A model generated the notes under the pieces. The model saw nothing but the letters and a program-made list of their open reading frames with translations, had not been told where the DNA came from and did not search any database. A DNA stretch of 64,000 bases from Roseibium sp. TrichSKD4 (lineage in GTDB: Bacteria > Pseudomonadota > Alphaproteobacteria > Rhizobiales > Stappiaceae): contig NZ_GL476319.1 in assembly GCF_000148725.1 (NCBI RefSeq), positions 639,923 through 703,922 on the forward strand, written 5' to 3'. Positions 1 through 12,681 of the stretch are shown here, piece after piece. Position 1 is the first letter of the stretch. Every line of letters starts with the position of its first letter. The position numbers and the translations under genes were made by a program.

Positions 1-1118
1 CAGCCCTTCAGGCGACGTCAAGCATGATGGGTTCAGTGCAAGAGCGGCTCTCTACGGGGAAAAAGGTCAATTCGGCTCTCGATGATCCGAATGCGTTCTT
101 TACGGCCAAGGGTTTGGAAAACCGCGCCAACGACTTGAGCACCCTGCTCGATGACCAAGGCCAGGCGATCCAGACTCTGAAGGCTGCTGACAAGGGGATC
201 AGCGCTATTTCAGAACTGGTCGATGCGGCAAAGGCAAAAGCCAATCAGGCTTTGCAGACCTCCGACATCGGTGAGCGTGAGCAGTATACAAGCGAATATA
301 ATGAGCTGCTGACTCAGATCGAGGACATCGCCAAGGACGCTGGTTATAACGGCAAGAACCTGCTGAGTGGCACGGGCAATGATGTAAACGTGATCTTCAA
401 CGAAGATGGCACATCGGACCTCGACATCTCTGCGGTCGACTACACTGATACAGCCAATGGCCCACTAAGCCTTGCTTCATTGGGCGACTCTTCGGGTGGC
501 ACAGCGACATTCACGCTAAACAATGACGGTGCTACCGGTACACCAGCCCTCACGGGCGGTCAGTTGGTCACCTTGGATGACTCATTTTCTGCAGGCGACA
601 CGCTGACCATCACCAATACCGCCGGTGAAGAGACAAAGATCGAGATCACGGACACAATGACCGTTTCACAGCTGGAAACAGCTATTACGGGCACGTCCTC
701 CGATACGACCGCGTCATTCGCCACTGGTACAATGACCATCACGTCCTCCGATGAGGCTGTGCAGATCAAATCCGACAATGCCACCTTCAACAGCGGGAAC
801 ACGCTGACGGCTGGCACACTTGGCGGCCTGGGAACGGATTCAGCCATCGACACGGTGCTGACCAACTTGAAGAGCGCACAGGACCAACTGCGGTCCCAAG
901 CCTCCACTTTCGGTACCAACCTGTCCATCGTTCAGAACCGCGAAGAGTTCACCAAGGCGATGATCAGCACCCTTGAAGAAGGTGCAGGCAAACTGGTTCT
1001 GGCAGACTCCAATGAAGAAGGCGCGAACCTTCTCGCTCTGCAGACACAACAGGCACTAGCTTCGACCTCTCTGTCGATGGCAGCACAAGCAGACCAAAAC
1101 GTTCTGCGACTGCTTTAA
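1..1118 (+). CDS. Flagellin A (5' end outside window)
   Basis: Structural subunit of the flagellar filament, exported by the flagellar type III system. The reading frame is already open at base 3, and the residues before the first in-window ATG (position 24) match the N-terminal region of the next flagellins, so the true start lies upstream. The conserved N-terminal helix (TGKKVNSALDDPNAFFTA) and C-terminal helix ending NVLRLL are the flagellin D0/D1 parts. The central segment has the GDTLTITNTAGEE motif shared with flagellins B-D. It resembles flagellin D (4303-5466) most closely: both carry a DTANGPLSL segment and the same ALTGGQLVTLDD stretch. First of six tandem flagellin genes. Family assignment is certain; the start is not visible. 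Confidence 0.95.
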   Translation, partial: ALQATSSMMGSVQERLSTGKKVNSALDDPNAFFTAKGLENRANDLSTLLDDQGQAIQTLKAADKGISAISELVDAAKAKANQALQTSDIGEREQYTSEYNELLTQIEDIAKDAGYNGKNLLSGTGNDVNVIFNEDGTSDLDISAVDYTDTANGPLSLASLGDSSGGTATFTLNNDGATGTPALTGGQLVTLDDSFSAGDTLTITNTAGEETKIEITDTMTVSQLETAITGTSSDTTASFATGTMTITSSDEAVQIKSDNATFNSGNTLTAGTLGGLGTDSAIDTVLTNLKSAQDQLRSQASTFGTNLSIVQNREEFTKAMISTLEEGAGKLVLADSNEEGANLLALQTQQALASTSLSMAAQADQNVLRLL

Positions 1119-1159
1119 AAAATACAAAACATAGGCGCAAACAAACCATGACTGGATAA

Positions 1160-1182
1160 GGCGGGCTTCGGCCCGCCTTTTT
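1160..1182 (+). terminator. Intrinsic terminator after flagellin A
   Basis: A GC-rich stem (GGCGGGC, TTCG loop, GCCCGCC) is followed by five T residues, 42 bases after the flagellin A stop. It should end the flagellin A transcript and make flagellin B separately transcribed. Confidence 0.9.
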
Positions 1183-1417
1183 CGTTTCGCTGTGGCATAA
1201 TAGGCGGGCAGGCAAATGCGGGTCGCAAATTCTCGCGATGACTGTAGAAGCATGACAAGGACAATTCTGCCCCTCCTGACACTTCCGACATTGTCAGTCG
1301 TGATTTTCATTTCGATATAAATAACAGCTGTTTATATCTTTTTTAATGATGAAATTCGTCAAGTAAAACTGCCAATAACGCCTGAAATAAAAGATGCGGC
1401 ATGTGTCCTGCCGTCGG

Positions 1418-1455
1418 ACCCAGGACGGGTTCCAGTATTGCGTACCCTAGAAAGG
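1418..1455 (+). promoter_or_regulatory. Flagellin B leader: AGGAC hairpin plus CCTAGAAAGG element
   Basis: The upstream element 1418-1430 reads ACCC-AGGAC-GGGT and can fold as a 4-bp stem with a 5-nt loop. The second element (CCTAGAAAGG, 1446-1455) starts about 26 bases later and contains the ribosome binding site of the ATG at 1463. The same pair occurs before flagellins C, D and E. Binding by FlbT or a CsrA-like protein is an inference. Confidence 0.6.
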
Positions 1456-1462
1456 ACACACT

Positions 1463-2629
1463 ATGACTGATATCGCAATCACAAGCGCCGTTCGCTCGAA
1501 CCTGAACGCGCTTCAGTCAGCTTCCTCGCTCATCAGCGGCGTGCAGGAAAAGCTGGCAACCGGCAAAAAAGTCAACTCTGCCCTCGACAATCCGAACTCA
1601 TTCTTCACGGCCAAAGGCCTTGAAAACCGCGCCAATGACTTGGCAACCCTACTCGACGATCAGGGACAATCCATTCAGACCCTGAAAGCCGCCGACAAGG
1701 GTATTGGCGCCATCGGCGAACTGGTCGACGCAGCAAAGGCGAAAGCTAACCAAGCTCTACAGACCTCCAGCATTTCCGAACGCGAGCAGTTCTCTAAAGA
1801 GTACAACGAGCTGCTGACCCAGATTGAGGACATCGCCAAGGACTCCAGCTACAAGGGCAAAAATCTGCTCGGCGGCACAGGCAACGACCTCAACGTCACG
1901 TTCAACGAAGATGGGTCTTCGGATCTGGACATCTCGGCTGTTGATTACACCGACACGTCCAATGCCAAAGGCCTGAATTTGAGTGACCTGAATAGCTCCA
2001 CCGGCGGTACAAACTCAATTTCACTCAACAATGATGGTGCAACTGGTGACCCAGCTTTGACTGGTAGCCAATTGGTCACATTGGACGATGCATTTAGCGC
2101 CGGTGACACACTGACGATCACCAACACCGCTGGCGAAGAGACCACCTTTACGATTACCGAAACAACTACAGTTACTGAGTTGAACACGGCAATCAGCAAC
2201 AGCTCCACGGACACGTCTTCTTCTGTAGGTTCAGGCGCAATCAACATCACGTCGAGTGACAACGCTGTTCAGATCAAATCAGACAACAGCGCGTTTAATG
2301 GAGGCAACACGCTCCAGGTAGGCACGCTTGGCAGCTTTGGATCGGATTCGGATATTGAAAGCACCCTTTCATCTCTGAAGTCTGCACAAGACACTCTCAG
2401 AGCACAGGCATCTACCTTCGGTACCAACCTTTCCATCGTGCAAAACCGGGAAGATTTCACCAAGGCCCTTATCAACACGCTTGAAGAAGGTGCCGGTAAA
2501 CTGACCCTGGCTGATACGAACCAGGAAGGTGCAAACCTTTTGGCGCTGCAGACCCAGCAGCAGCTGGCCTCCACGTCCCTGTCGCTGGCTTCTCAGGCCT
2601 CTCAGAACGTGTTGCGTCTTATCGGTTAA
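1463..2629 (+). CDS. Flagellin B
   Basis: 388-residue flagellin, filament subunit. The N-terminus starts TDIAITSAVRSNLNALQ and leads into the conserved TGKKVNSALDNPNSFFTA helix. The C-terminus runs through STFGTNLSIVQNREDFTK to NVLRLIG. The central variable domain has the GDTLTITNTAGEE motif. The ATG at 1463 is chosen because an AGAAAGG ribosome binding site lies just upstream and the N-terminus aligns with the other flagellins. The C-terminal third is nearly the same as in flagellin C (SDSDIESTLSSLKSAQDTLRAQ), suggesting a B/C duplication or gene conversion. Flanked by its own terminators, so probably monocistronic. Confidence 0.96.
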   Translation: MTDIAITSAVRSNLNALQSASSLISGVQEKLATGKKVNSALDNPNSFFTAKGLENRANDLATLLDDQGQSIQTLKAADKGIGAIGELVDAAKAKANQALQTSSISEREQFSKEYNELLTQIEDIAKDSSYKGKNLLGGTGNDLNVTFNEDGSSDLDISAVDYTDTSNAKGLNLSDLNSSTGGTNSISLNNDGATGDPALTGSQLVTLDDAFSAGDTLTITNTAGEETTFTITETTTVTELNTAISNSSTDTSSSVGSGAINITSSDNAVQIKSDNSAFNGGNTLQVGTLGSFGSDSDIESTLSSLKSAQDTLRAQASTFGTNLSIVQNREDFTKALINTLEEGAGKLTLADTNQEGANLLALQTQQQLASTSLSLASQASQNVLRLIG

Positions 2630-2671
2630 CTGGTCAGACCGAAAAAACGAAAAAATATTTTCTCCGATCCT

Positions 2672-2699
2672 GGCGGGCCTCATAGCCCGCCCTTTTTTT
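2672..2699 (+). terminator. Intrinsic terminator after flagellin B
   Basis: A GGCGGGC/GCCCGCC stem with a six-base loop is followed by seven T residues, 43 bases after the flagellin B stop. Confidence 0.9.
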
Positions 2700-2901
2700 G
2701 CTTGAACGCAAACATCAATATTTCCATTATATGTCTGTTTTAAATACCTTTTCTCATCCAAGACTCGCCTTAGGTAATTAAAACGCGTTAGCAAAACTGA
2801 CGTTAAGAGACTCTTTCAAAAAACAACCTTACGTAACTTTTACAGGGTCAACACAGCTTAATCTTGCATTAAGAGTCCATGTCGTTTCTAGCAATACAGC
2901 C

Positions 2902-2938
2902 GCCCAGGAAGGGTTGGTAAAAATACGAGCTAGAAGGA
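2902..2938 (+). promoter_or_regulatory. Flagellin C leader: AGGAA hairpin plus GCTAGAAGGA element
   Basis: 2902-2914 reads GCCC-AGGAA-GGGT, a short stem (with one G-U pair) and an AGGAA loop. GCTAGAAGGA follows 26 bases later and contains the ribosome binding site of the ATG at 2947. The downstream element does not form a stable hairpin here, unlike in flagellins D and E. Confidence 0.6.
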
Positions 2939-2946
2939 AACGTATT

Positions 2947-4104
2947 ATGAGCGGGATCACCATCACCAGCGCTGTCCGTAGCAACCTTGTTGCGCTTCAA
3001 TCGACAGCCGACATGATGAGCTCAGTTCAGAACAAGCTGTCGACCGGCAAGAAGGTCAACTCTGCACTGGACAACCCAAATTCATTCTTCACCGCCAAAG
3101 GTCTTGAAAACCGCGCAAATGATTTGGCAACGCTGCTTGACGATCAGGGCCAAGCCATCCAGACCTTGAAAGCAGCAGACAAAGGTATTGGCGCTATCGG
3201 TGAGCTGGTTGACGCCGCCAAGGCGAAAGCAAACCAGGCCCTGCAAACCTCCAGCATCTCCGAGCGCGAGCAATTTGCCTCCGAGTACAACGAACTGCTG
3301 ACCCAGATTGAGGATATTGCTAAGGATTCCGGCTACAAGGGCAAGAACCTGCTGGCTGGTACTGGCAATGATCTCAACGTGGTTTTCAACGAAGACGGGT
3401 CTTCCGACCTGGATATCACTGCCATCGACTACACGGACACATCCAGCGCCACCGGGCTGAACCTGTCTGATTTGTCGGACTCTGAAGGTGGAACCGCAAC
3501 GTTTTCCTTGAACAACGATGGAGCGACTGGAACGCCTGCGTTGACTGGCGGAGCGAAGGTTACGCTTGATGACGCGTTCAGCGTGGGTGACACCTTGACC
3601 ATCACCAACACTGCGGGTGAAGAGAAAAAGATTGAGATTACGGAAGACCTGACCGTAACGGAACTCGAGAACGCGATTAAGGGCTCATCGGACGATACAA
3701 CCGCTTCGTTCGCCAAAGGCACGATGACGATCACTTCGACTGATGAAGCTTTTAAGATCAGCTCAGATAGCAGCAGTTTCGCCGACAAAAGTGGCGGCAC
3801 ACTCGGCGGGTTTGGCTCAGATTCCGATATCGAATCGACGCTATCTTCATTGAAGTCCGCGCAAGACACCCTGCGCGCCCAAGCCTCCACATTCGGTACG
3901 AACCTTTCAATCGTGCAGAACCGTGAAAGCTTCACCAAAGACATGATCAACACGCTGGAAGAGGGTGCTGGCAAATTGACTTTGGCAGATACGAACCAAG
4001 AGGGCGCAAACCTTCTGGCTCTTCAAACACAGCAGCAGCTGGCGTCTACGTCTCTGTCCCTCGCCTCTCAGGCATCGCAGAACGTCCTGCGTCTTATCGG
4101 CTAA
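2947..4104 (+). CDS. Flagellin C
   Basis: 385-residue flagellin. The ATG at 2947 (SGITITSAVRSNLVALQ) is chosen over an in-frame upstream start because it lies 8-10 bases after AGAAGGA and aligns with the other flagellins. It has the conserved TGKKVNSALDNPNSFFTA N-terminal helix, a central domain with GDTLTITNTAGEE, and a C-terminal helix ending NVLRLIG. The N-terminal conserved part and the last 100 residues are nearly identical to flagellin B, while the middle (KGSSDDTTASFAKGTMTIT) resembles flagellins A and D, so the gene looks mosaic. Confidence 0.96.
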   Translation: MSGITITSAVRSNLVALQSTADMMSSVQNKLSTGKKVNSALDNPNSFFTAKGLENRANDLATLLDDQGQAIQTLKAADKGIGAIGELVDAAKAKANQALQTSSISEREQFASEYNELLTQIEDIAKDSGYKGKNLLAGTGNDLNVVFNEDGSSDLDITAIDYTDTSSATGLNLSDLSDSEGGTATFSLNNDGATGTPALTGGAKVTLDDAFSVGDTLTITNTAGEEKKIEITEDLTVTELENAIKGSSDDTTASFAKGTMTITSTDEAFKISSDSSSFADKSGGTLGGFGSDSDIESTLSSLKSAQDTLRAQASTFGTNLSIVQNRESFTKDMINTLEEGAGKLTLADTNQEGANLLALQTQQQLASTSLSLASQASQNVLRLIG

Positions 4105-4143
4105 GCCGAAGGGACAAAACGAAAAATTTACAATTTTGAGGGT

Positions 4144-4161
4144 GGCGGACAGAAGTCCGCC
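4144..4161 (+). terminator. Hairpin after flagellin C, no U-tract
   Basis: A GGCGGAC-AGAA-GTCCGCC hairpin lies 40 bases after the flagellin C stop, where the other flagellin genes have terminators. It is followed by GCCCCC rather than a T run, so termination may be weak and read-through into flagellin D is possible. Confidence 0.5.
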
Positions 4162-4255
4162 GCCCCCTCCACGCTAAGATTTCCGTAACGTTAATTTCAG
4201 CTAACCACGTTTCTTCAGGATTCGTTACCTCGGTAAGATGCTCACTGTTACCCGC

Positions 4256-4294
4256 ACCCAGGAAGGGTGTTTACATGAGTAATCCTAGAAGGGA
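4256..4294 (+). promoter_or_regulatory. Flagellin D leader: AGGAA hairpin plus TCCTAGAAGGGA hairpin
   Basis: 4256-4268 reads ACCC-AGGAA-GGGT, and the stem can extend by two pairs on the outside. 4283-4294 reads TCCT-AGAA-GGGA, which can pair around an AGAA loop and would mask part of the ribosome binding site of the ATG at 4303. The two elements are 26 bases apart, as in flagellins B and C. Confidence 0.62.
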
Positions 4295-4302
4295 TAAATC
4301 CA

Positions 4303-5466
4303 ATGGGTAACAATGTTACACTGACGAGCGCCGTGCGCTCGAACCTGAACGCACTTCAAGCAACATCTCAATTGATGAGCACTGTTCAGGAACGCCTTGC
4401 CACCGGCAAAAAAGTCAACTCCGCTCTCGACAATCCGAACTCTTTCTTCACTGCAAAGGGTCTTGAGAACCGCGCCAACGATTTGAGCACCCTGCTCGAT
4501 GACCAGGGCCAGGCGATCCAGACATTGAAAGCAGCGGATAAGGGTATCAGCGCGATTTCCGAGCTGGTTGATGCCGCAAAAGCCAAGGCAAACCAGGCTC
4601 TGCAAACCTCCAACATTGGTGAGCGTGAGCAATATGCCACTGAATATAACGAGCTTCTGACTCAGATTGAAGATCTGGCGAAAGATGCTGGTTACAAAGG
4701 CAAAAACCTGCTTGGCGGTACCGGTAACGACCTCAATGTTGTGTTCAACGAAGACGGCACGTCTGATCTGGACATTACAGCGATTGACTACACCGACACT
4801 GCCAATGGTCCATTGAGCTTGTCAGAACTGTCAAACTCTTCCGGTGGTACTGCTACGTTCTCATTGAACAATGACGGAGCAACTGGCGCACCCGCTCTGA
4901 CGGGCGGTCAATTGGTCACGTTGGACGATGCTTTTTCCGCAGGTGACACCCTGACGATCACCAACACGGCCGGTGAAGAGACAAAAATTGAGATCACGGA
5001 CACACTGACCGTTTCTCAGCTGGAAACAGCGATCGGCAACACCTCGACTGACACCACGGCTTCCTATGCTTCTGGCACACTGACCATCACATCAACTGAT
5101 GAGGCGGTTCAGATCAAGTCAGATAATGCCAGCTTCAACAGTGGCAACACATTGCAGGCTGGTACGTTGGGTGGTTTCGGTGCGGACTCCAGCATCGATA
5201 CGGTTCTGACCAGCCTGAAAAGTGCGCAGGACACCCTGCGCTCTCAAGCTTCTACGTTCGGTACGAACCTTTCGATCGTACAAAACCGGGAAGACTTCAC
5301 CAAGGACATGATCAACACCTTGAGTGAAGGTGCAGGCAAGCTGACCCTCGCAGACACCAATGAAGAAGGTGCAAACCTTCTGGCTCTGCAAACACAGCAG
5401 TCATTGGCATCGACATCCTTGTCACTGGCATCTCAGGCATCACAGAACGTCCTGCGTCTGTTCTGA
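4303..5466 (+). CDS. Flagellin D
   Basis: 387-residue flagellin starting GNNVTLTSAVRSNLNALQ, with an AGAAGGG ribosome binding site upstream. It has the conserved N-terminal and C-terminal helices, the central GDTLTITNTAGEETKIEI motif and the end NVLRLF. It shares the DTANGPLSL segment and the DTLTVSQLETAI stretch with flagellin A, so A and D form one pair and B and C another within the array. An intrinsic terminator follows. Confidence 0.96.
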   Translation: MGNNVTLTSAVRSNLNALQATSQLMSTVQERLATGKKVNSALDNPNSFFTAKGLENRANDLSTLLDDQGQAIQTLKAADKGISAISELVDAAKAKANQALQTSNIGEREQYATEYNELLTQIEDLAKDAGYKGKNLLGGTGNDLNVVFNEDGTSDLDITAIDYTDTANGPLSLSELSNSSGGTATFSLNNDGATGAPALTGGQLVTLDDAFSAGDTLTITNTAGEETKIEITDTLTVSQLETAIGNTSTDTTASYASGTLTITSTDEAVQIKSDNASFNSGNTLQAGTLGGFGADSSIDTVLTSLKSAQDTLRSQASTFGTNLSIVQNREDFTKDMINTLSEGAGKLTLADTNEEGANLLALQTQQSLASTSLSLASQASQNVLRLF

Positions 5467-5492
5467 TCCAGCAGACATTGCGAAAAGAAATC

Positions 5493-5521
5493 AAAATGGC
5501 GGGCCTTCCCGCCATTTTTTG
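5493..5521 (+). terminator. Intrinsic terminator after flagellin D
   Basis: An 11-bp stem (AAAATGGCGGG / CCCGCCATTTT) with a CCTT loop is followed by a T run, 26 bases after the flagellin D stop. Confidence 0.9.
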
Positions 5522-5840
5522 TTGCAGTCACTTTCAAAGACAAACAATGGCAAAGATCGCCCCTGCCCTTCTTCGCAGCGGAAGATCTCCAATACATATT
5601 GCTAAAACCAACAATTGCAGCTAATTCGAAGCAATAAACGCAAAAATTGCAGAAGATATTTTTTTCTAACCTAACGAAACTTCCCGCAAACTCTTCATTT
5701 CAATAGTCTTTTATCGTCCTGACCACCCCTACTGGCTCCGCAATAACGAAAACTCCCCTTCGTCATTAACGTTTGATTTACCCTGATTTGGGAGGTTTTT
5801 ACTGACTGTTAGGGTTAACAGTGTGCGAACACCTAACATT

Positions 5841-5882
5841 CCGCTCAGGAAGAGCGGTAGTATTCGTTGACCTAGGAAGGGT
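5841..5882 (+). promoter_or_regulatory. Flagellin E leader: CCGCTC-AGGAA-GAGCGG hairpin plus ACCTAGGAAGGGT
   Basis: 5841-5857 folds as a six-base-pair stem CCGCTC/GAGCGG around an AGGAA loop. Compared with ACCC/GGGT in flagellin D, both sides of the stem have changed together while the loop is the same, a covariation that supports a real RNA structure. 5870-5882 (ACCT-AGGAA-GGGT) can form a second hairpin with the same loop over the ribosome binding site of the ATG at 5888. Confidence 0.65.
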
Positions 5883-5887
5883 ACACA

Positions 5888-7393
5888 ATGAAAGACATCA
5901 CGCTATCGGCTGCCGTCCGGCAGAACCTGTTGACGCTTCAATCCACAGCCGACCTGATGTCCGGCGTCCAGAACAAGCTGGCTACCGGTTTGAAGGTCAA
6001 CTCAGCCCTCGACAATCCAAATTCATTCTTCACTGCATCTGGCCTCAATAGCCGCGCGGGTGATCTCAGCACCCTACTTGATGACATGGGCCAGTCACTG
6101 CAGACGATCAAGGCAGCTGACAAGGGCATTCAGACCATTACGGATCTGGTCGAAACCGCCAAGGCGAAGGCCAACCAAGCCCTGCAAAGTCAAAGCCAAT
6201 ATGAGCGCAAGACCTACGCAAAGCAGTATAATGAGCTGCTGGAGCAGATCGAAGATGTTGCAAAAGACTCTTCCTATAAGGGCAAAAACCTGCTCGCTGG
6301 TGACGGCAACGACCTGACCACCATCTTCAACGAAGATGCAACGTCCAAACTGACCATTGATGCGGTTGACTACACGGACACCACATTGTCTGGCGGCCTG
6401 AACCTGTCCGACCTTGCTGAAGGCGAAGGCGCGGCAACGTCCTTCGGCTTGAATGGCGGTTCAAACACGATCACCTTTACCGACGCTAGTGGTCAGGTTC
6501 TAAACACAGCTTCAAAACTCAGCGAATTCACCGGCATAGCCGTAGCCGATGTGCTTCAGCTGTTTGATGACGCGACGACGGGTGCAGTTGTAGGCGGCGT
6601 CTCCCTGACCGTAGCAACAGGGACAACCGTGCAGGACCTGATCACAGAGCTGGAAAGCGCGCCAGGTGTTCGAACAGAGTTCGATCAAACGTCCGGCACC
6701 TTGACCATCATCTCAAATGAGACAGCGGACCTCAGAAACAACGGCGCCAGCGGCGCGAACACTGGTGACCTGGTCGCGGTAACGGCCGCAGCTGCTGGTT
6801 CACTCGGCGCATTGCTTACTGACGGCGCCAGCTTCAAGGTGGGGGACACCCTGTCCCTGACAGACGGCAACAACTTTGAGCTTGGCTCGCTGGAAATCGA
6901 AGACGATACGACCGTTCGGGATCTCGTCGAATTTCTTGATGACTTCAACGGTGTCAGCGCAAGTTTCAATGCAGGAACTGGTCGTGTTGGCCTTCAGAGT
7001 GACACCGACCTCGCACTTACGAGCGATAACAACAACTTTAACTCGACAAGTTTTGGGGCCGATACGGACGGTGTAACGATCTCCGCCCTCTCCGACAGCG
7101 GGTTTGCGACAGACAATGACATCAACCGAGCGGTGGACAGACTAAACACCGCCTTGTCGAACCTTAGATCGCAAGCGTCCGAATTTGGTACCAATCTCTC
7201 AACGGTTGAGATCCGGAAAGATTATACCAAGGCGATGATCAACACCCTGCAAGAAGGTGCTGGCCTGTTGACCTTGGCCGATACCAACGAGGAAGGTGCA
7301 AACCTCCTGGCACTTCAAACCCGCCAGCAGCTTGCTTCAACCTCCCTCTCCTTCGCTTCGCAGGCTGACCAAACGGTACTTTCGCTCTTCTAG
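5888..7393 (+). CDS. Flagellin E (long form)
   Basis: 501-residue flagellin starting KDITLSAAVRQNLLTLQ. The N-terminal (TGLKVNSALDNPNSFFTA) and C-terminal (ASEFGTNLSTVEIRKDYTK through QTVLSLF) helices are conserved. The variable middle is about 115 residues longer than in flagellins A-D and contains two GDTLSLTDG/ADVLQLFDD-type modules, suggesting a duplicated D2/D3-like domain. It groups with flagellin F by length and by KVNSALDNPNSFFTA preceded by TGL rather than TGK. AGGAAGGG is the ribosome binding site; a terminator follows. Confidence 0.95.
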   Translation: MKDITLSAAVRQNLLTLQSTADLMSGVQNKLATGLKVNSALDNPNSFFTASGLNSRAGDLSTLLDDMGQSLQTIKAADKGIQTITDLVETAKAKANQALQSQSQYERKTYAKQYNELLEQIEDVAKDSSYKGKNLLAGDGNDLTTIFNEDATSKLTIDAVDYTDTTLSGGLNLSDLAEGEGAATSFGLNGGSNTITFTDASGQVLNTASKLSEFTGIAVADVLQLFDDATTGAVVGGVSLTVATGTTVQDLITELESAPGVRTEFDQTSGTLTIISNETADLRNNGASGANTGDLVAVTAAAAGSLGALLTDGASFKVGDTLSLTDGNNFELGSLEIEDDTTVRDLVEFLDDFNGVSASFNAGTGRVGLQSDTDLALTSDNNNFNSTSFGADTDGVTISALSDSGFATDNDINRAVDRLNTALSNLRSQASEFGTNLSTVEIRKDYTKAMINTLQEGAGLLTLADTNEEGANLLALQTRQQLASTSLSFASQADQTVLSLF

Positions 7394-7437
7394 GTTTAGA
7401 ATCGCGAAACCTGGCGACACACAACCCTACAACCACC

Positions 7438-7464
7438 ATGGCGGGCATTTTGCCCGCCATTTTT
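7438..7464 (+). terminator. Intrinsic terminator after flagellin E
   Basis: An ATGGCGGGCA/TGCCCGCCAT stem with a short T loop is followed by a T run, 45 bases after the flagellin E stop. Confidence 0.88.
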
Positions 7465-7675
7465 CGTGTTTCGTGCTATTTCCAGGCAAAATGGCCCCAG
7501 AATTTTTCGTTAATTTTCAAATGCTTGAAAAAAATCTTTTGGTAACTTCTCTTTACAAAAGGTTAAGAGGTGCACTCTTGAGTGGTTTCAACATTAGAAT
7601 TGCTGGTAATTGCTTGTAGCCAAATAGGTAAAAGGGCTTCAGGCACACAACTGGTAACTGATGCGGTGACCCCTG

Positions 7676-9181
7676 ATGAGTGATATTGTCCTTACAAGTG
7701 CAGTCCGGGAAAACCTTCTGGCCTTGAAAAACACGGCAGACTTGCAGTCTCGCACGCAAAACCGGCTTTCCACCGGATTGAAGGTCAATTCCGCGCTCGA
7801 CAATCCGAATTCATTCTTTACCGCAGCAGGCCTCAATGCCCGCGCAGGTGATTTGGGCAGCCTGCTCGACAATATGGGACAGGCGGTCCAGACGATCCGT
7901 GCCGCCAATGACGGTATTGAAGCCATTTCCAAACTGGTTGAATCGGCCAAGGCCATCGCCAATCAAGCGCTTCAAACACAAAGTGAATTTGAGCGTAAAA
8001 CTTTCACGCAGCAGTTCAATGATGTGCTTGTGCAAATTGAAGATCTGGCCAAAGATTCCGGCTACAAGGGCAAGAACTTGCTCGCGGGCCTCGGAAACGA
8101 ATTGGAAGTCATTTTCAACGAGGACAGTACATCAACTCTGACTGTCAATCCGGTTGACTATACTGACACTTCTCTTGAAACCGGCCTAAACCTCGCAGAC
8201 CTTGAAAACGGCGGGACCGGAACCAGCTCATTTACTCTGCAAGGCGGGTCGGTCGAACTTGATCTCGCAACATTGCAAGCTTCTTCTAACCTGACCGACC
8301 TAGCAGCCTGGTCGACAGGTGACGTCGTTACCATTGGAGATGGCACGACATCAAAAACACTCACGGTCGGAACAGACATTACAACCGTGCAAGACTATAT
8401 CGACGCGATTAGCGGTCTCGGCGGGCTTCATGCCACATTCGATGAAGGCACCGACAAAATCACCGTTACTTCTGCGCTTGATACGGGTGTAACACTCAGC
8501 GTTGCGAAGGATAATGCAGGCGGCGGAACCGCTACCGACGGCGGCATTGGAACCGGCACAGCCACCCTTACCACAACAGCGCTGACTGCGAACGCCACGC
8601 TGATCACATCAGCAGGTTTCCAGATTGGCGACACGCTGACGATTACAGACGGCAATGGGTTTGAGCCAGCCTCACTAGAAATCGACGAAGACACAACGGT
8701 CGATGACCTTGTGACCCTGATCGACAATGTGAAAGGTTTGAACGCGACGTTCTCCGGCGGCAGCATCAGTCTGATTGGTGAAGTGTCTTTCACTATTAAC
8801 AGTGACAACCGGGACTTCAATCAGGGTGGATTGATTGCGACAGACCCTGTCCCCAAATCACCGGCTTCCCTTCTTGCAGATGCATCCGAATTCCAGAAAG
8901 ACACGGACATTGAACGCACACTTCAAGCGGTCAATGCGGCTCTGGACGAGTTGCGGTCCTCTGCAACATCGCTTGGCGCAAGTTTGTCCACGGTTGAAAT
9001 CAGAACAGACTTCACAGAAGAACTGATCAACACGCTGGAAGTTGGTGCCGGTGCCCTGACAATTGCCGACATGAACGAAGAAGGAGCCAATATGCTGGCC
9101 CTTCAAACCCGTCAGCAGTTGTCATCCACAGCGCTATCCCTGGCGAACCAGGCCGAACAGAGCGTCTTGAACCTATTCTGA
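7676..9181 (+). CDS. Flagellin F (long form)
   Basis: 501-residue flagellin starting SDIVLTSAVRENLLALKNTA, with TGLKVNSALDNPNSFFTA and a C-terminus ending QSVLNLF. The middle has two copies of a GD(T/V)(L/V)T(I/IG)(T/D)DG module (around residues 220 and 320). It is the most diverged member of the array. Unlike flagellins B-E it has neither the AGGAA hairpin nor a purine-rich ribosome binding site before its ATG (GCGGTGACCCCTG precedes it), so its translation is probably weak or controlled in another way. No terminator lies between it and flbT, so it may be cotranscribed with flbT-flaF. Confidence 0.94.
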   Translation: MSDIVLTSAVRENLLALKNTADLQSRTQNRLSTGLKVNSALDNPNSFFTAAGLNARAGDLGSLLDNMGQAVQTIRAANDGIEAISKLVESAKAIANQALQTQSEFERKTFTQQFNDVLVQIEDLAKDSGYKGKNLLAGLGNELEVIFNEDSTSTLTVNPVDYTDTSLETGLNLADLENGGTGTSSFTLQGGSVELDLATLQASSNLTDLAAWSTGDVVTIGDGTTSKTLTVGTDITTVQDYIDAISGLGGLHATFDEGTDKITVTSALDTGVTLSVAKDNAGGGTATDGGIGTGTATLTTTALTANATLITSAGFQIGDTLTITDGNGFEPASLEIDEDTTVDDLVTLIDNVKGLNATFSGGSISLIGEVSFTINSDNRDFNQGGLIATDPVPKSPASLLADASEFQKDTDIERTLQAVNAALDELRSSATSLGASLSTVEIRTDFTEELINTLEVGAGALTIADMNEEGANMLALQTRQQLSSTALSLANQAEQSVLNLF

Positions 9182-9272: not shown

Positions 9273-9761
9273 ATGGCGCTCAAGGTCGAACTGAAACCCG
9301 GTGAAAGAATTATTATCGGTGACAGCGTAATCACCAATGATAATCAAAGAACACGTTTGTTCATCGAAGGACAGGCGCCTATTCTCCGGGAAAAAGACAT
9401 ATTGACACCGGAAACGGCAGACACTCCTGCAAAACGCGTCTATTTGGCAGTACAACTCATGTATCTGTCCGATGACTTGGAGAAAATTCAGGGAAATTAC
9501 TTTACACTGGTCAATGATATTGTCTCGGCAGCTCCGAGTACCATTCCATATGTTACTCAGATCAGTAATTCAATAATTTCCGGATCATTCTACAAGGCAT
9601 TGAAAGAGGCGAAAAAGCTTATTGAGTACGAGAGGACGCTAATAAGTCATGTACAAGCAGGCAGCGCAGGCTTATCAGAAAACCAGCCAGGTGGCAGTGT
9701 CGCCGAGGGAGCTGGAAGCGAACCTTCTTATGAAGGCCGCAGCCCGGCTCCAGCTGGTTAA
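9273..9761 (+). CDS. flbT: Flagellin synthesis repressor FlbT
   Basis: In Caulobacter FlbT binds the 5' leader of flagellin mRNA and lowers its translation and stability until the hook is complete; FlaF counteracts it. The protein starts ALKVELKPGERIIIGDSVI and has the FlbT hallmarks (TPAKRVYLAVQLMYL, then ALKEAKKLIEYERTL). The ATG at 9273 follows GGAGG by seven bases. At 162 residues it is about 15-20 residues longer than usual FlbT proteins: the last 37 codons (Gly/Ser/Pro-rich, ending SPAPAG) overlap the start of flaF in another frame. Its place beside leaders with a shared RNA element suggests it acts on them; this is inference. Confidence 0.93.
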   Translation: MALKVELKPGERIIIGDSVITNDNQRTRLFIEGQAPILREKDILTPETADTPAKRVYLAVQLMYLSDDLEKIQGNYFTLVNDIVSAAPSTIPYVTQISNSIISGSFYKALKEAKKLIEYERTLISHVQAGSAGLSENQPGGSVAEGAGSEPSYEGRSPAPAG

Positions 9762-10023
9762 GGATGAGTGGCAGCAAACCTCTCTGGCACAGCGCGATGA
9801 CGCGCTGACCTATAACCGAAAGCTTTGGACCATTCTCGTCACCTCCGCGACAAACGGTGAAAATCCGCTGCCGCAGGAGATCAAGAACAACATTGCTTCA
9901 CTAGGTGTGTTTGTTTTCAAGCAAACCATGGAAGCGATGACCGACGAAGAAGGCAACAAACTCAACAGCTTGATCAGCATCAACCGCGCGATTGCAGAAG
10001 GACTGCGAGCCCGCGCTGAATAA
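9649..10023 (+). CDS. flaF: Flagellar biosynthesis regulator FlaF
   Basis: 124-residue FlaF. It begins MYKQAAQAYQKTSQ and has the family motif SPRELEANLLMKAAARLQ (about residues 18-35), then NRKLWTILVTS and a C-terminal helix with SLISINRAIAEGL. FlaF promotes flagellin synthesis and secretion and works opposite FlbT. The start at 9649 fits the family N-terminus and lies inside flbT, giving a 113-base overlap, far longer than the usual 1-20 bases. A terminator follows. Confidence 0.93.
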   Translation: MYKQAAQAYQKTSQVAVSPRELEANLLMKAAARLQLVKDEWQQTSLAQRDDALTYNRKLWTILVTSATNGENPLPQEIKNNIASLGVFVFKQTMEAMTDEEGNKLNSLISINRAIAEGLRARAE

Positions 10024-10166: not shown

Positions 10167-12599
10167 TTATTTCTTAGCGAACCAGACGTCTTCTGTGAGC
10201 ATCTGACCATTGTTGGCAGATGACTGCATCAAGGTCTCGCCGCGCTCATTCACAACGTCGTTGCGCTGTGTGGAGAGCTGAGTGACACCTGCTTCAGCTG
10301 CAGAGCGGAGCTCGCCAGCGTCAACATCGCCGTCACCATTGGCATCAACCCAAACACCCATGTTGGCCATTTCGCCGCCAGTCAGCTGACCGTCACCGTT
10401 CTGGTCATAGGTGGCCATCTTCTGGTAGCCGTCTGTGTAACGACCGCCTTGGTCACCCATCAGGGCATTGCCGTCGATCTCGCCATTGGCGCCGATCTTG
10501 GTCATGTCGACAACAAGGCCGTCACCACCGGTGATCCACTCGACCTGCTCCTTGGTACCGTCGCCATCGATATCGAAGGCAATAGTTTCACCAACCTGGC
10601 CATCGATACGCTGTTGAGCGGTCGAAACACCCGTTGTGGAGATACGGCCGTCACCATTCAGGTCCAGAGCAACCGGAGAGGCAACTTTGTCCTTGCCCTT
10701 ACCGTTGTTGTAGTCGGCAACCTTTTGACCATCACCATTGTTGATGTGGTACTTGCCACCGCCCTGGTGAACAGCTGTGTAGCCTTTCAACGGGCCTTCC
10801 TTGAAGGTGTAACCGCCATTGGCATGGTTGTACTTGCCATGGCCGATCAGCCACTTGCCTTCCTTGCCCTTGACGTAGTCGATCACGGCCTGGTCAGCTG
10901 CAGAGATCTGAGGCTGAGCCGGAACGGCTTGCCAGACGCCGTTGTTATTCACGACAGTCCAACCGCCGTTGTTAACTCCGCCACCGTTGTTGGCACCGCC
11001 ATTGTTGCCAGCGCCGTTGTTAACAACCTCCCACGTACCGTTATTGTTCACAACTGCCCAGCCAGCATCACCGCCGCCGTTATTGGCGCCACCAGCTCCA
11101 TTGTCCATGAAGTTGATAGCTTGCCAGACGCCATTTTCGTTCATGACAGCCCAGCCCGCGCCGTTACCGCCGCCGACATTGGCGCCACCGCCCCAGTTGC
11201 CACCGTTGTTACCGCCCCAGTTACCGCCGTTGTTCCAGCCGCCACCATTGTTCGCGCCGCCCCAGTTGCCGCCATTCTGCTGGCCAGCACGGAACTGGTT
11301 GTCAAAGCCATTGAAGTTTGTGTCAAAGAGACCGCCAACTTCATATTCCTTGACAGCTTCCTTATCGCCCTGGGCTACGATTTCACCTTGGGCGTTCTCA
11401 ATGGCACCACCGCCCTGTGCACCGGCACCGCGGTCGCCGTTACGAGCCTGACCGTCACCATCAACCGTAACACCCCATAGGCCGTTAGGCTTGACGTTGT
11501 CAGCCACAGCATTGTCACTGCGGAAGTTGATATCGAGCCAGCCATTCTGGCCAGGGCTGCGCGCTTCAATTGTAATTGTGTATTCGCCAGCCTTGATCGT
11601 GACCTTGTTGCCTTCAAGCTTCACATCACCACCAAGGTGCTCGCCCTTGTTGCACGGTTGACCATTGATGGTCAGAGCCCCGGTCTTATCGAAGCCGATC
11701 TGATTGCCGCCAACAGAGATTCCCATGGCACCAACGACTGTTGCTCCGCCGCCACCCCAGGCATCAAAGCGGCCGTTGACCTGAACACCCTGATCAGACA
11801 GGAGATTATAAGTCTTCCCGGCTTCACCTTGGACGTCATAGTTACCACCATCAGCACCTACGAAATGCGGGTCGCCCCAGATACGGCCGTTCTCAACTTT
11901 GATTGGGTCCATTGGTTTGGCGCCACCGCCGTTGCCACCCCAATTTCCACCATTATTGCCGCCGTTACCCCAATTTCCACCAGGGTTCCAGTTGCCGCCA
12001 TTGTCGCCGCCGTTCCAGCCGCCACCATTGTTAGCGCCACCCATGTCGCCATGATTGTGACCGCCGCCCCAGTTGCCACCATTGTTCCAGGCACCACCGA
12101 TATTGACGGACTGGTCGGTAAACGCAAGCTGCTCGATGCCCTTCAGGTTATCTGTCGCGCCGGTGTTGTTGTCGATTACAAGCGTCATGTCACCATTTTT
12201 CATGATGGTGTAATCCGCACGGTTGCCGTCATAGAGAGCAACGTCATTGCCAGCGCCACCACGAATGGTGTCTGCCCCTGCCCCGCCTTTGATAATGTCG
12301 TTGCCAGCACCACCCTTGATCAGGTCGTCACCTTCACCGCCAAACTGAATGTCGTTGCCCATGCCGCCAACAAGAGCGTCATTTCCACCGTTGCCGAACT
12401 GGACATTGTTCATGGCGTTCCCAACGATGGTGTCATTGCCCTGACCACCATTTTGAGCACCATTGCCACCATTGTGGTTTGGCTGTTTTGCGATTGTCAG
12501 ATGCGCATTTTGCTTCAGCGCGTTCCCAAAACCATCAGCTTTAGCCGCACCACCGTCATGAGCACCGTGATTTGCATGACCAACCTTATTGCACACCAT
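10167..12599 (-). CDS. RTX / GDPH (VWD-like) / EF-hand surface protein
   Basis: About 810 residues, no signal peptide, probably secreted (RTX proteins usually use type I secretion; inference). Layout: His/Asn-rich start; about six RTX nonapeptides (GGAGNDIIKGGAGADTI, residues 60-150) with the ADYTI...LKGIEQLAFTD cap; Gly-Asn-Trp linker (170-230); a module starting IWGDPHFVGADGG that resembles von Willebrand D domains; a second Gly-Asn linker with three degenerate NENGVWQA/NNNGTWEV repeats; and a 245-residue C-terminal domain with EF-hand loops DLNGDGRIS, DIDGDGTKE, DQNGDGQLTGGE and DANGDGDVDAGE. The start at 12599 follows GAGGAGA by six bases, better than an upstream in-frame ATG. Paralogous to the genes at 12908-14332 and 52142-54964. 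Likely calcium-binding; the exact role is unknown. Confidence 0.85.
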   Translation of the reverse strand: MVCNKVGHANHGAHDGGAAKADGFGNALKQNAHLTIAKQPNHNGGNGAQNGGQGNDTIVGNAMNNVQFGNGGNDALVGGMGNDIQFGGEGDDLIKGGAGNDIIKGGAGADTIRGGAGNDVALYDGNRADYTIMKNGDMTLVIDNNTGATDNLKGIEQLAFTDQSVNIGGAWNNGGNWGGGHNHGDMGGANNGGGWNGGDNGGNWNPGGNWGNGGNNGGNWGGNGGGAKPMDPIKVENGRIWGDPHFVGADGGNYDVQGEAGKTYNLLSDQGVQVNGRFDAWGGGGATVVGAMGISVGGNQIGFDKTGALTINGQPCNKGEHLGGDVKLEGNKVTIKAGEYTITIEARSPGQNGWLDINFRSDNAVADNVKPNGLWGVTVDGDGQARNGDRGAGAQGGGAIENAQGEIVAQGDKEAVKEYEVGGLFDTNFNGFDNQFRAGQQNGGNWGGANNGGGWNNGGNWGGNNGGNWGGGANVGGGNGAGWAVMNENGVWQAINFMDNGAGGANNGGGDAGWAVVNNNGTWEVVNNGAGNNGGANNGGGVNNGGWTVVNNNGVWQAVPAQPQISAADQAVIDYVKGKEGKWLIGHGKYNHANGGYTFKEGPLKGYTAVHQGGGKYHINNGDGQKVADYNNGKGKDKVASPVALDLNGDGRISTTGVSTAQQRIDGQVGETIAFDIDGDGTKEQVEWITGGDGLVVDMTKIGANGEIDGNALMGDQGGRYTDGYQKMATYDQNGDGQLTGGEMANMGVWVDANGDGDVDAGELRSAAEAGVTQLSTQRNDVVNERGETLMQSSANNGQMLTEDVWFAKK

Positions 12600-12681
12600 A
12601 GTCGTTCTCCTCGAGACAATCCGAATAACCTTTGTTGCCGGAGATACTACAGAATAAAATTTCAATAGTAATTCGCATTGA

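Follow-up and report, generated by a model that had tools for sequence, protein, structure and literature searches.

Tandem AGRA-loop hairpins in the flagellin leaders of Roseibium and its relatives, a candidate target of FlbT

Of the five complete flagellin genes (B-F) in a 64,000-nucleotide stretch of Roseibium sp. TrichSKD4 (contig NZ_GL476319.1, positions 639,923 to 703,922; the whole stretch is hereafter the window), four (B-E) are preceded by paired small RNA hairpins. These hairpins probably form a cis-acting translational control element of the structural flagellin messenger RNAs (mRNAs), read by the FlbT protein of the same cluster. A sequence-only reading had drawn attention to AGGAA-loop elements in these leaders. 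Comparison with related loci confirms that this observation was real and larger than first described, newly found features being a second hairpin with an AGRA loop, a flagellin (F) whose leader lacks the element, and loops in which GGA is not required.

All features described here lie on the forward strand unless otherwise noted. Upstream of flagellin B, hairpin 1 occupies 1416..1432 (GGACCC-AGGAC-GGGTTC, loop 1422-1426), and hairpin 2, read from the sequence, lies over the Shine-Dalgarno at 1446..1455 (CCT-AGAA-AGG), 7 nucleotides (nt) before the ATG at 1463. Flagellin D carries hairpin 1 at 4254..4270 (GCACCC-AGGAA-GGGTGT, loop 4260-4264) and hairpin 2 over the Shine-Dalgarno at 4282..4295 (ATCCT-AGAA-GGGAT); in flagellin E the corresponding hairpins are at 5841..5857 (CCGCTC-AGGAA-GAGCGG, loop 5847-5851) and 5870..5882 (ACCT-AGGAA-GGGT). 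The flagellin C leader is less regular: its hairpin 1 at 2902..2914 (GCCC-AGGAA-GGGT, loop 2906-2910) has four pairs followed by a C.U mismatch and an imperfect outer stem, and its second element, CTAGAAGGA at 2930..2938 at the ribosome binding site, is a poor hairpin. The sequence-only reading had placed AGGAA- or AGGAC-loop elements before flagellins B-E, 26-27 nt from a second element, and the coordinates bear this out, with loop-to-loop distances of 27 (B), 26 (C), 27 (D) and 27 nt (E). It was also right that the stem next to the loop, ACCC/GGGT in B and D, is CCGCTC/GAGCGG in E while the AGGAA loop is kept. Its description of short-stem hairpins holds for B, D and E and, with an imperfect stem, for C, and the B leader on its own favours a competing fold.

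When leaders were folded alone, both hairpins formed in D and E, the C leader adopted a bulged form, and the minimum-energy fold of the B leader contained a competing inner pairing and a long-range stem, not hairpin 1 as drawn. Whole-leader folding energy beat that of shuffled sequences for D (z -2.77) and E (z -2.32), and was not better than shuffles for B (z -0.07), C (-0.59) or F (-0.52). In the B leader an upstream strand, TGTGTCCT at 1402..1409, can pair with AGGACACA at 1453-1460 in an alternative structure that excludes hairpin 2; in the C leader the second element can pair with TTTCTAGC at 2885-2892. In forming, these long-range stems (1402-1409/1453-1460 in B and 2885-2892/2929-2936 in C) would compete with hairpin 2 for the Shine-Dalgarno region and cover it. 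Pairing of at least 8 Watson-Crick pairs between the region upstream of hairpin 1 and the Shine-Dalgarno region is present in 18 of 110 leaders, window B included, against 3.2 expected, which suggests two mutually exclusive folds in some leaders.

Scanning genomes with FlbT yielded 80 related loci (L001-L080, the best 80 of 403 confirmed), and the start sites in these loci and the window supplied 194 flagellin leaders; flagellin matches without a nearby start codon, or starting beyond position 15 of the hidden Markov model (position 20 in the other sets), were dropped. A stem of at least 4 base pairs (bp) on an AGNAN pentaloop occurs in 111 of the 194 leaders, where dinucleotide shuffling predicts 3.15. 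In hairpin 1 a 6-bp stem carries a C-(AGRAN)-G pentaloop, and the 111 loops have AGGA (85), AGAA (19) or another AGNA (7); the conserved core is therefore AGRA, not GGA. GGA is not required, being missing from 26 of the 111 hairpin-1 loops and 56 of the 110 hairpin-2 loops. The covarying stems proposed by the sequence-only reading are borne out among the relatives. In an alignment of 58 leaders, made up of window C and 57 picked for stems no shorter than 5 bp and less than 80% likeness (L074_6517 and L009_8416 are omitted), all six hairpin-1 pairs covary, both sides changing in some sequences, with a covariation score of 0.667 compared with 0.213 after shuffling and no more than 0.162 when partners were slid. 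Selection by stem favours pairing in this alignment; the same variety of pairs is seen in 124 leaders for which loop motif and position were the sole criteria, with no stem required.

Hairpin 2, usually a small AGRA-loop hairpin of the form CC(T/C)AGRA(A)GG, is found in 110 of the 194 leaders. The Shine-Dalgarno lies inside it in 109 of these, 7-12 nt from the start codon and partly by construction of the search pattern, and only one of the 110 has a further Shine-Dalgarno-like 4-mer. The core of hairpin 2 hardly varies, since it contains the Shine-Dalgarno; one position further out, the two bases pair in 89 of 110 leaders, against 68 expected from column composition. Both hairpins occur together in 94 leaders at a loop-to-loop distance of 16-32 nt (26-28 nt in 65 of the 94), a spacing that, with one site at the Shine-Dalgarno, falls within the 10-63 nt range given for CsrA bridging (passages of PMC7652899). 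Two loci have apparently three tandem hairpins instead of two (L034 near 7050-7119 and L074 near 6463-6519).

In the DNA searched, the element is restricted to flagellin starts. A covariance model of the element, R1, has four strong sites in the 64-kilobase window, at the starts of flagellins B (1414-1465, expectation value (E) 5e-9), C (2898-2949, E 1.8e-6), D (4252-4305, E 3.6e-12) and E (5839-5890, E 1.1e-9), thus spanning E 3.6e-12 to 1.8e-6, and the next match has E 0.27. Across the 80 loci (1.48 megabases), 116 of 118 R1 matches with E ≤ 1 end at a flagellin start codon; many of these leaders had gone into building R1, which counts against the strength of this figure: leader matches arise by construction, and the informative part is the near absence of other matches. 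Eight whole genomes of the Roseibium/Pannonibacter group, with at most 150 candidates scored in each, gave 27 matches at E ≤ 0.001: 26 lie on flagellin-cluster contigs at coordinates that agree with the loci, and the remaining one precedes a flagellin gene elsewhere in its genome (G001). Eight further matches at E 0.001-0.1 fall at two flagellin-cluster sites and six sites elsewhere; two of these six were read, and neither precedes a flagellin. A first class-wide scan with R1 matched 5 of 240 alphaproteobacterial genomes; with no more than 24 candidates scored in each, it was insensitive.

The flagellin gene directly upstream of flbT is set apart. Among the 30 loci of the Roseibium/Pannonibacter group (L001-L030), the element precedes none of the 30 flbT-adjacent flagellins and 79 of the 80 others, the sole miss being L008_3791. 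Window flagellin F (7676..9181, ATG at 7676, identified by NCBIfam similarity) is of this flbT-adjacent type, and its leader has neither the element nor an R1 match. In the remaining loci, R1 matches 20 of 45 flbT-adjacent flagellins and 17 of 34 others. In a flagellin tree of 101 of the 194 flagellins, built by a quick method without bootstrap, the eight flbT-adjacent element-free flagellins that were included, window F among them, form one clade beside the E type (Shimodaira-Hasegawa-like approximate likelihood ratio 99). Clusters with one element-bearing and one element-free paralog recur with many separate origins; a single origin of element-free flagellins over all families is not supported, the tree implying 21 changes, at least 16 of them forced. 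In Caulobacter, FljJ is the one paralog to which FlbT binds, and the FlbT-FljJ pair represses the other flagellins (passages of PMC7591256). By analogy with FljJ, flagellin F may be a co-repressor or checkpoint signal.

FlbT is the best-supported candidate reader of the element. Its gene (9273..9761, Pfam FlbT E 5.6e-43) and flaF (9649..10023, Pfam FlaF E 1.1e-33) both accompany the flagellins in the window, as expected of an FlbT-controlled leader. The sequence-only reading had named FlbT and a CsrA-type site as alternatives, with reference to the Bacillus hag leader, in which a paired-hairpin layout is bound by CsrA. The first of these is the reading we favour, binding by FlbT being what we infer; the second, in which a CsrA protein would read the leaders as classical CsrA sites, is very improbable. 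A pair of AGGA-loop hairpins, one of them over the ribosome site, does resemble the hag layout, similar hairpins occur in CsrA-positive alphaproteobacteria, and the Shine-Dalgarno GGA beside loop 2 could still be a site. Against this, csrA was present in none of 30 relatives searched, 13 of them Roseibium, Labrenzia or Pannonibacter, in a search whose controls were positive in E. coli, B. subtilis and T. maritima. Moreover, GGA, so often missing from the hairpin loops, is 100% conserved in E. coli CsrA selection experiments (systematic evolution of ligands by exponential enrichment; passages of PMC7652899). A literal CsrA reader is thus disfavoured.

Among 240 alphaproteobacterial genomes of unstated completeness, FlbT was detected in 81, FlaF in 85, CsrA in 48, FliW in 41 and Flagellin_N in 145; two genomes had both FlbT and CsrA, and none had both FlbT and FliW. 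Within the 145 flagellin-positive genomes, FlbT (79) and CsrA (43) overlap in 2 against 23.4 expected, FlbT and FliW in 0 against 21.8, and CsrA and FliW in 37 against 11.9. Leaders were taken class-wide from part of these 145 genomes, repeated upstream sequences being dropped. FlbT-positive genomes carry a C-A...-G hairpin of at least 5 bp in 32 of 80 leaders (6.2 expected), and 25 of 40 loops are AAAA or AGAA. CsrA-positive, FlbT-negative genomes carry such hairpins in 15 of 30 flagellin leaders (2.6 expected), and 13 of 18 loops begin AGG. Genomes with neither protein have the hairpin in 6 of 29 leaders (2.1 expected) and are a weak negative control because some carry FlaF and A-rich hairpins. 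The second letter of the loop is G in 120 of 131 hairpins from the 80 loci and the window, where FlbT has E6 and G16, and A in 16 of 31 hairpins from 19 genomes where FlbT has N16; this shift fits a reader-specific loop code, but it follows kinship too. Ten CsrA-positive loci (L183, L185, L188, L191, L193, L197, L202, L206, L210 and L211) have AGGAA, AGGAU and AGGUA loops, the AGGUA loop differing from the usual GGA of CsrA, and several of them have UCC-AAGUA-GGA over the Shine-Dalgarno, downstream of the first loop.

Several observations weigh against FlbT as the reader. The exclusion between FlbT and CsrA tracks lineages, and the overlap counts are uncorrected for kinship and hence inflated. 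Loci L001-L080 were collected with FlbT, which makes the co-occurrence of flbT there a matter of construction. By the C-A...-G test the element was not found wherever FlbT is, only 26 of 50 sampled FlbT-positive genomes having a hairpin of at least 5 bp; it is missing from Rhizobiaceae-like flagellin leaders (L147 and L151, labelled by eye), and A-rich hairpins also occur in FlaF-positive genomes in which FlbT was not detected (G208 and G086). Hairpin 2 is short and covaries chiefly at one pair, and its search pattern already ended in AGG or TGG. In Brucella, flagellin production is described as dependent on FlbT (passages of PMC8781033). The link between FlbT and the loops is putative, and the class-wide shortfall of hairpins, about half of the sampled FlbT-positive genomes, leaves some room for another RNA-binding protein or an RNase as the reader, or for an RNA thermosensor or stability element, with FlbT acting elsewhere. 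We consider this unlikely. Strongly conserved loops on variable stems speak for a protein that reads them; passages of reviews name FlbT as the regulator reported to bind these mRNAs; and FlbT is encoded in the same cluster as elements that, in the DNA searched, are confined to flagellin starts.

FlbT is likely, from profile comparison, to be homologous to CsrA. Alignment of FlbT and CsrA profiles with hhalign gave P 1.2e-4 (37 and 28 sequences) and, with larger sets (62 and 68 sequences), P 4e-6, placing FlbT residues 3-41 on CsrA 2-46; L229, whose frame is misplaced, is excluded from the CsrA alignment. The score of 34.2 exceeded that of all 300 shuffled CsrA profiles (≤19.8). The null set comprised the 90 largest of 132 families of open reading frames (ORFs) from the loci, many of them wrong-frame because they were built from stop-to-stop ORFs. 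Of these, 87 scored below CsrA, the best FlbT-free family reaching 24.0; the other three, which scored 85 to 370, were set aside since their members include FlbT, and two families that each have one member bearing an FlbT-like signature were kept in. Reciprocally, FlbT was the best match of CsrA among the 90 families (24.9; next 21.2). In 100 of 100 half-samples (E 1.8e-6 to 3e-4) FlbT E11 fell on CsrA E10 and FlbT R39 on CsrA R44, an RNA-contacting residue described as essential for RNA binding (passages of PMC7366521, PMC7652899 and PMC6692469). AlphaFold models FlbT as five strands followed by helices (predicted local distance difference test 91.2; 82.5 for the N-terminal domain alone), and the predicted strands (E2-7, E12-15, E18-21, E27-32 and E37-39, then a helix) agree with the b1-b5-H1 order of CsrA (passages of PMC7366521). 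The FlbT helices match FlaF weakly (17 columns, E 0.0028).

An alternative is that this likeness reflects convergence on a short strand pattern between unrelated proteins, and several results weigh on that side. Only about 39 columns align. Foldseek, run without a CsrA positive control, listed no CsrA among the matches given for the FlbT model (50 of 121) or among all 45 for the N-terminal domain, and returned weak matches to cupin-like or other folds; sequence searches of the PDB with FlbT (phmmer and hmmsearch) found no CsrA. A Hyphomicrobiales-only FlbT profile aligned weakly to CsrA and in another register, and the R6-E46 salt bridge of CsrA (passages of PMC6692469) is not kept, FlbT having L7 and K41 at the aligned columns. 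Convergence is therefore possible; we nonetheless hold it doubtful, given the profile score against shuffles and ORF families, the reciprocal best match, the identical register at two conserved residues in every half-sample and the matching strand order. We lean, with some reserve, towards FlbT being a diverged RNA-binding protein of the CsrA superfamily, in which a CsrA-like strand domain is joined to helices. FlbT-FlaF would then have replaced the CsrA-FliW flagellin checkpoint in much of the alphaproteobacteria, the mRNA keeping its tandem-hairpin layout while the loop code shifted from AGGA/AGGU with CsrA to AGRA or ARAA with FlbT. The comparison with hag made by the sequence-only reading is thus apt, both for the similar hairpins of CsrA-positive, FlbT-negative leaders and for the profile match, although the leaders are not literal CsrA sites.

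FlbT is reported to bind flagellin 5' untranslated regions (UTRs), with a binding mode called 'unresolved' (passages of PMC4347634). In the mechanism that we propose, FlbT would read the two AGRA-loop hairpins, mostly set 26-28 nt apart from loop to loop, through its N-terminal CsrA-like strand domain, R39 standing in for CsrA R44. Hairpin 2, or in some leaders the long-range stem, would cover the Shine-Dalgarno, and an FlbT dimer bridging both loops would therefore lock the start site shut. The flbT-adjacent flagellin, which has no element, would for that reason escape FlbT control.

The sequence-only reading knew of no such alphaproteobacterial element. One Rfam family, flg-Rhizobiales (RF01736; treated in passages of PMC2864571 (Weinberg 2010) and PMC3765529), does exist for the group; it is a different element. 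No Rfam family, RF01736 included, matched window 1-64000 at gathering thresholds, 1-8000 at E ≤ 10 or seven related loci at gathering thresholds, and R1 had no match in the six RF01736 loci searched. The RF01736 matches that were read precede flgF (L306-L313; two of the downstream ORFs were named by NCBIfam), and its hairpins in L306-L311 have UUGGGAGA-type loops. Identity with the present element was rejected on position, loops and the lack of any mutual model match; flg-Rhizobiales may be a sister element that has a different reader.

Besides flagellins B-F, flbT and flaF, the window contains a further flagellin truncated by its left edge; by FlbT, the nearest relative is Roseibium sediminis, at 94% identity. 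In Pfam the FlaF product also matches the flagellin chaperone FliS, weakly and below threshold (E 3.3e-4; 21.4 bits, the cut-off being 26.7). An 832-residue Gly/Asn-rich ORF at 10167-12665 on the reverse strand adjoins the flagellar cluster and has NCBIfam matches, all below cut-off, to repeat regions of RTX-type secreted proteins.

Set beside known systems, the element resembles Bacillus hag and Campylobacter flaA, regulated by CsrA under the control of FliW, in having hairpin sites in the flagellin leader at the ribosome binding site, and a flagellin-coupled checkpoint of the kind described for them (passages of PMC4894983) would be expected here. It differs in its AGRA loop core in place of GGA, in the absence of csrA from the 30 relatives and in having FlbT-FlaF in place of CsrA-FliW. 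Like flg-Rhizobiales, it consists of short hairpins ahead of an alphaproteobacterial flagellar gene; unlike it, the downstream gene is not flgF and the loops are not of the GGGAGA type. With Caulobacter, where FlbT and the co-repressor FljJ act on flagellin 5' UTRs, it shares FlbT, FlaF, several flagellin paralogs with one set apart, and control at the 5' UTR (passages of PMC7591256 and PMC4347634). There the regulation of flagellin mRNA by FlbT was listed as unresolved in a 2015 review (passages of PMC4347634), whereas the leaders of the window and the 80 related loci define a covarying tandem AGRA-loop element. Its compactness, covariation and confinement to flagellin starts, together with the element-free paralog as a natural internal control, make the question directly testable. 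The FlbT and CsrA flagellin systems have been called analogous (passages of PMC4894983), and the passages available from papers that mention both proteins contain no claim of homology. If FlbT is a relative of CsrA, these two flagellin checkpoints, hitherto regarded as analogous, would have a common origin, and the loop code could be compared between the CsrA and FlbT clades.

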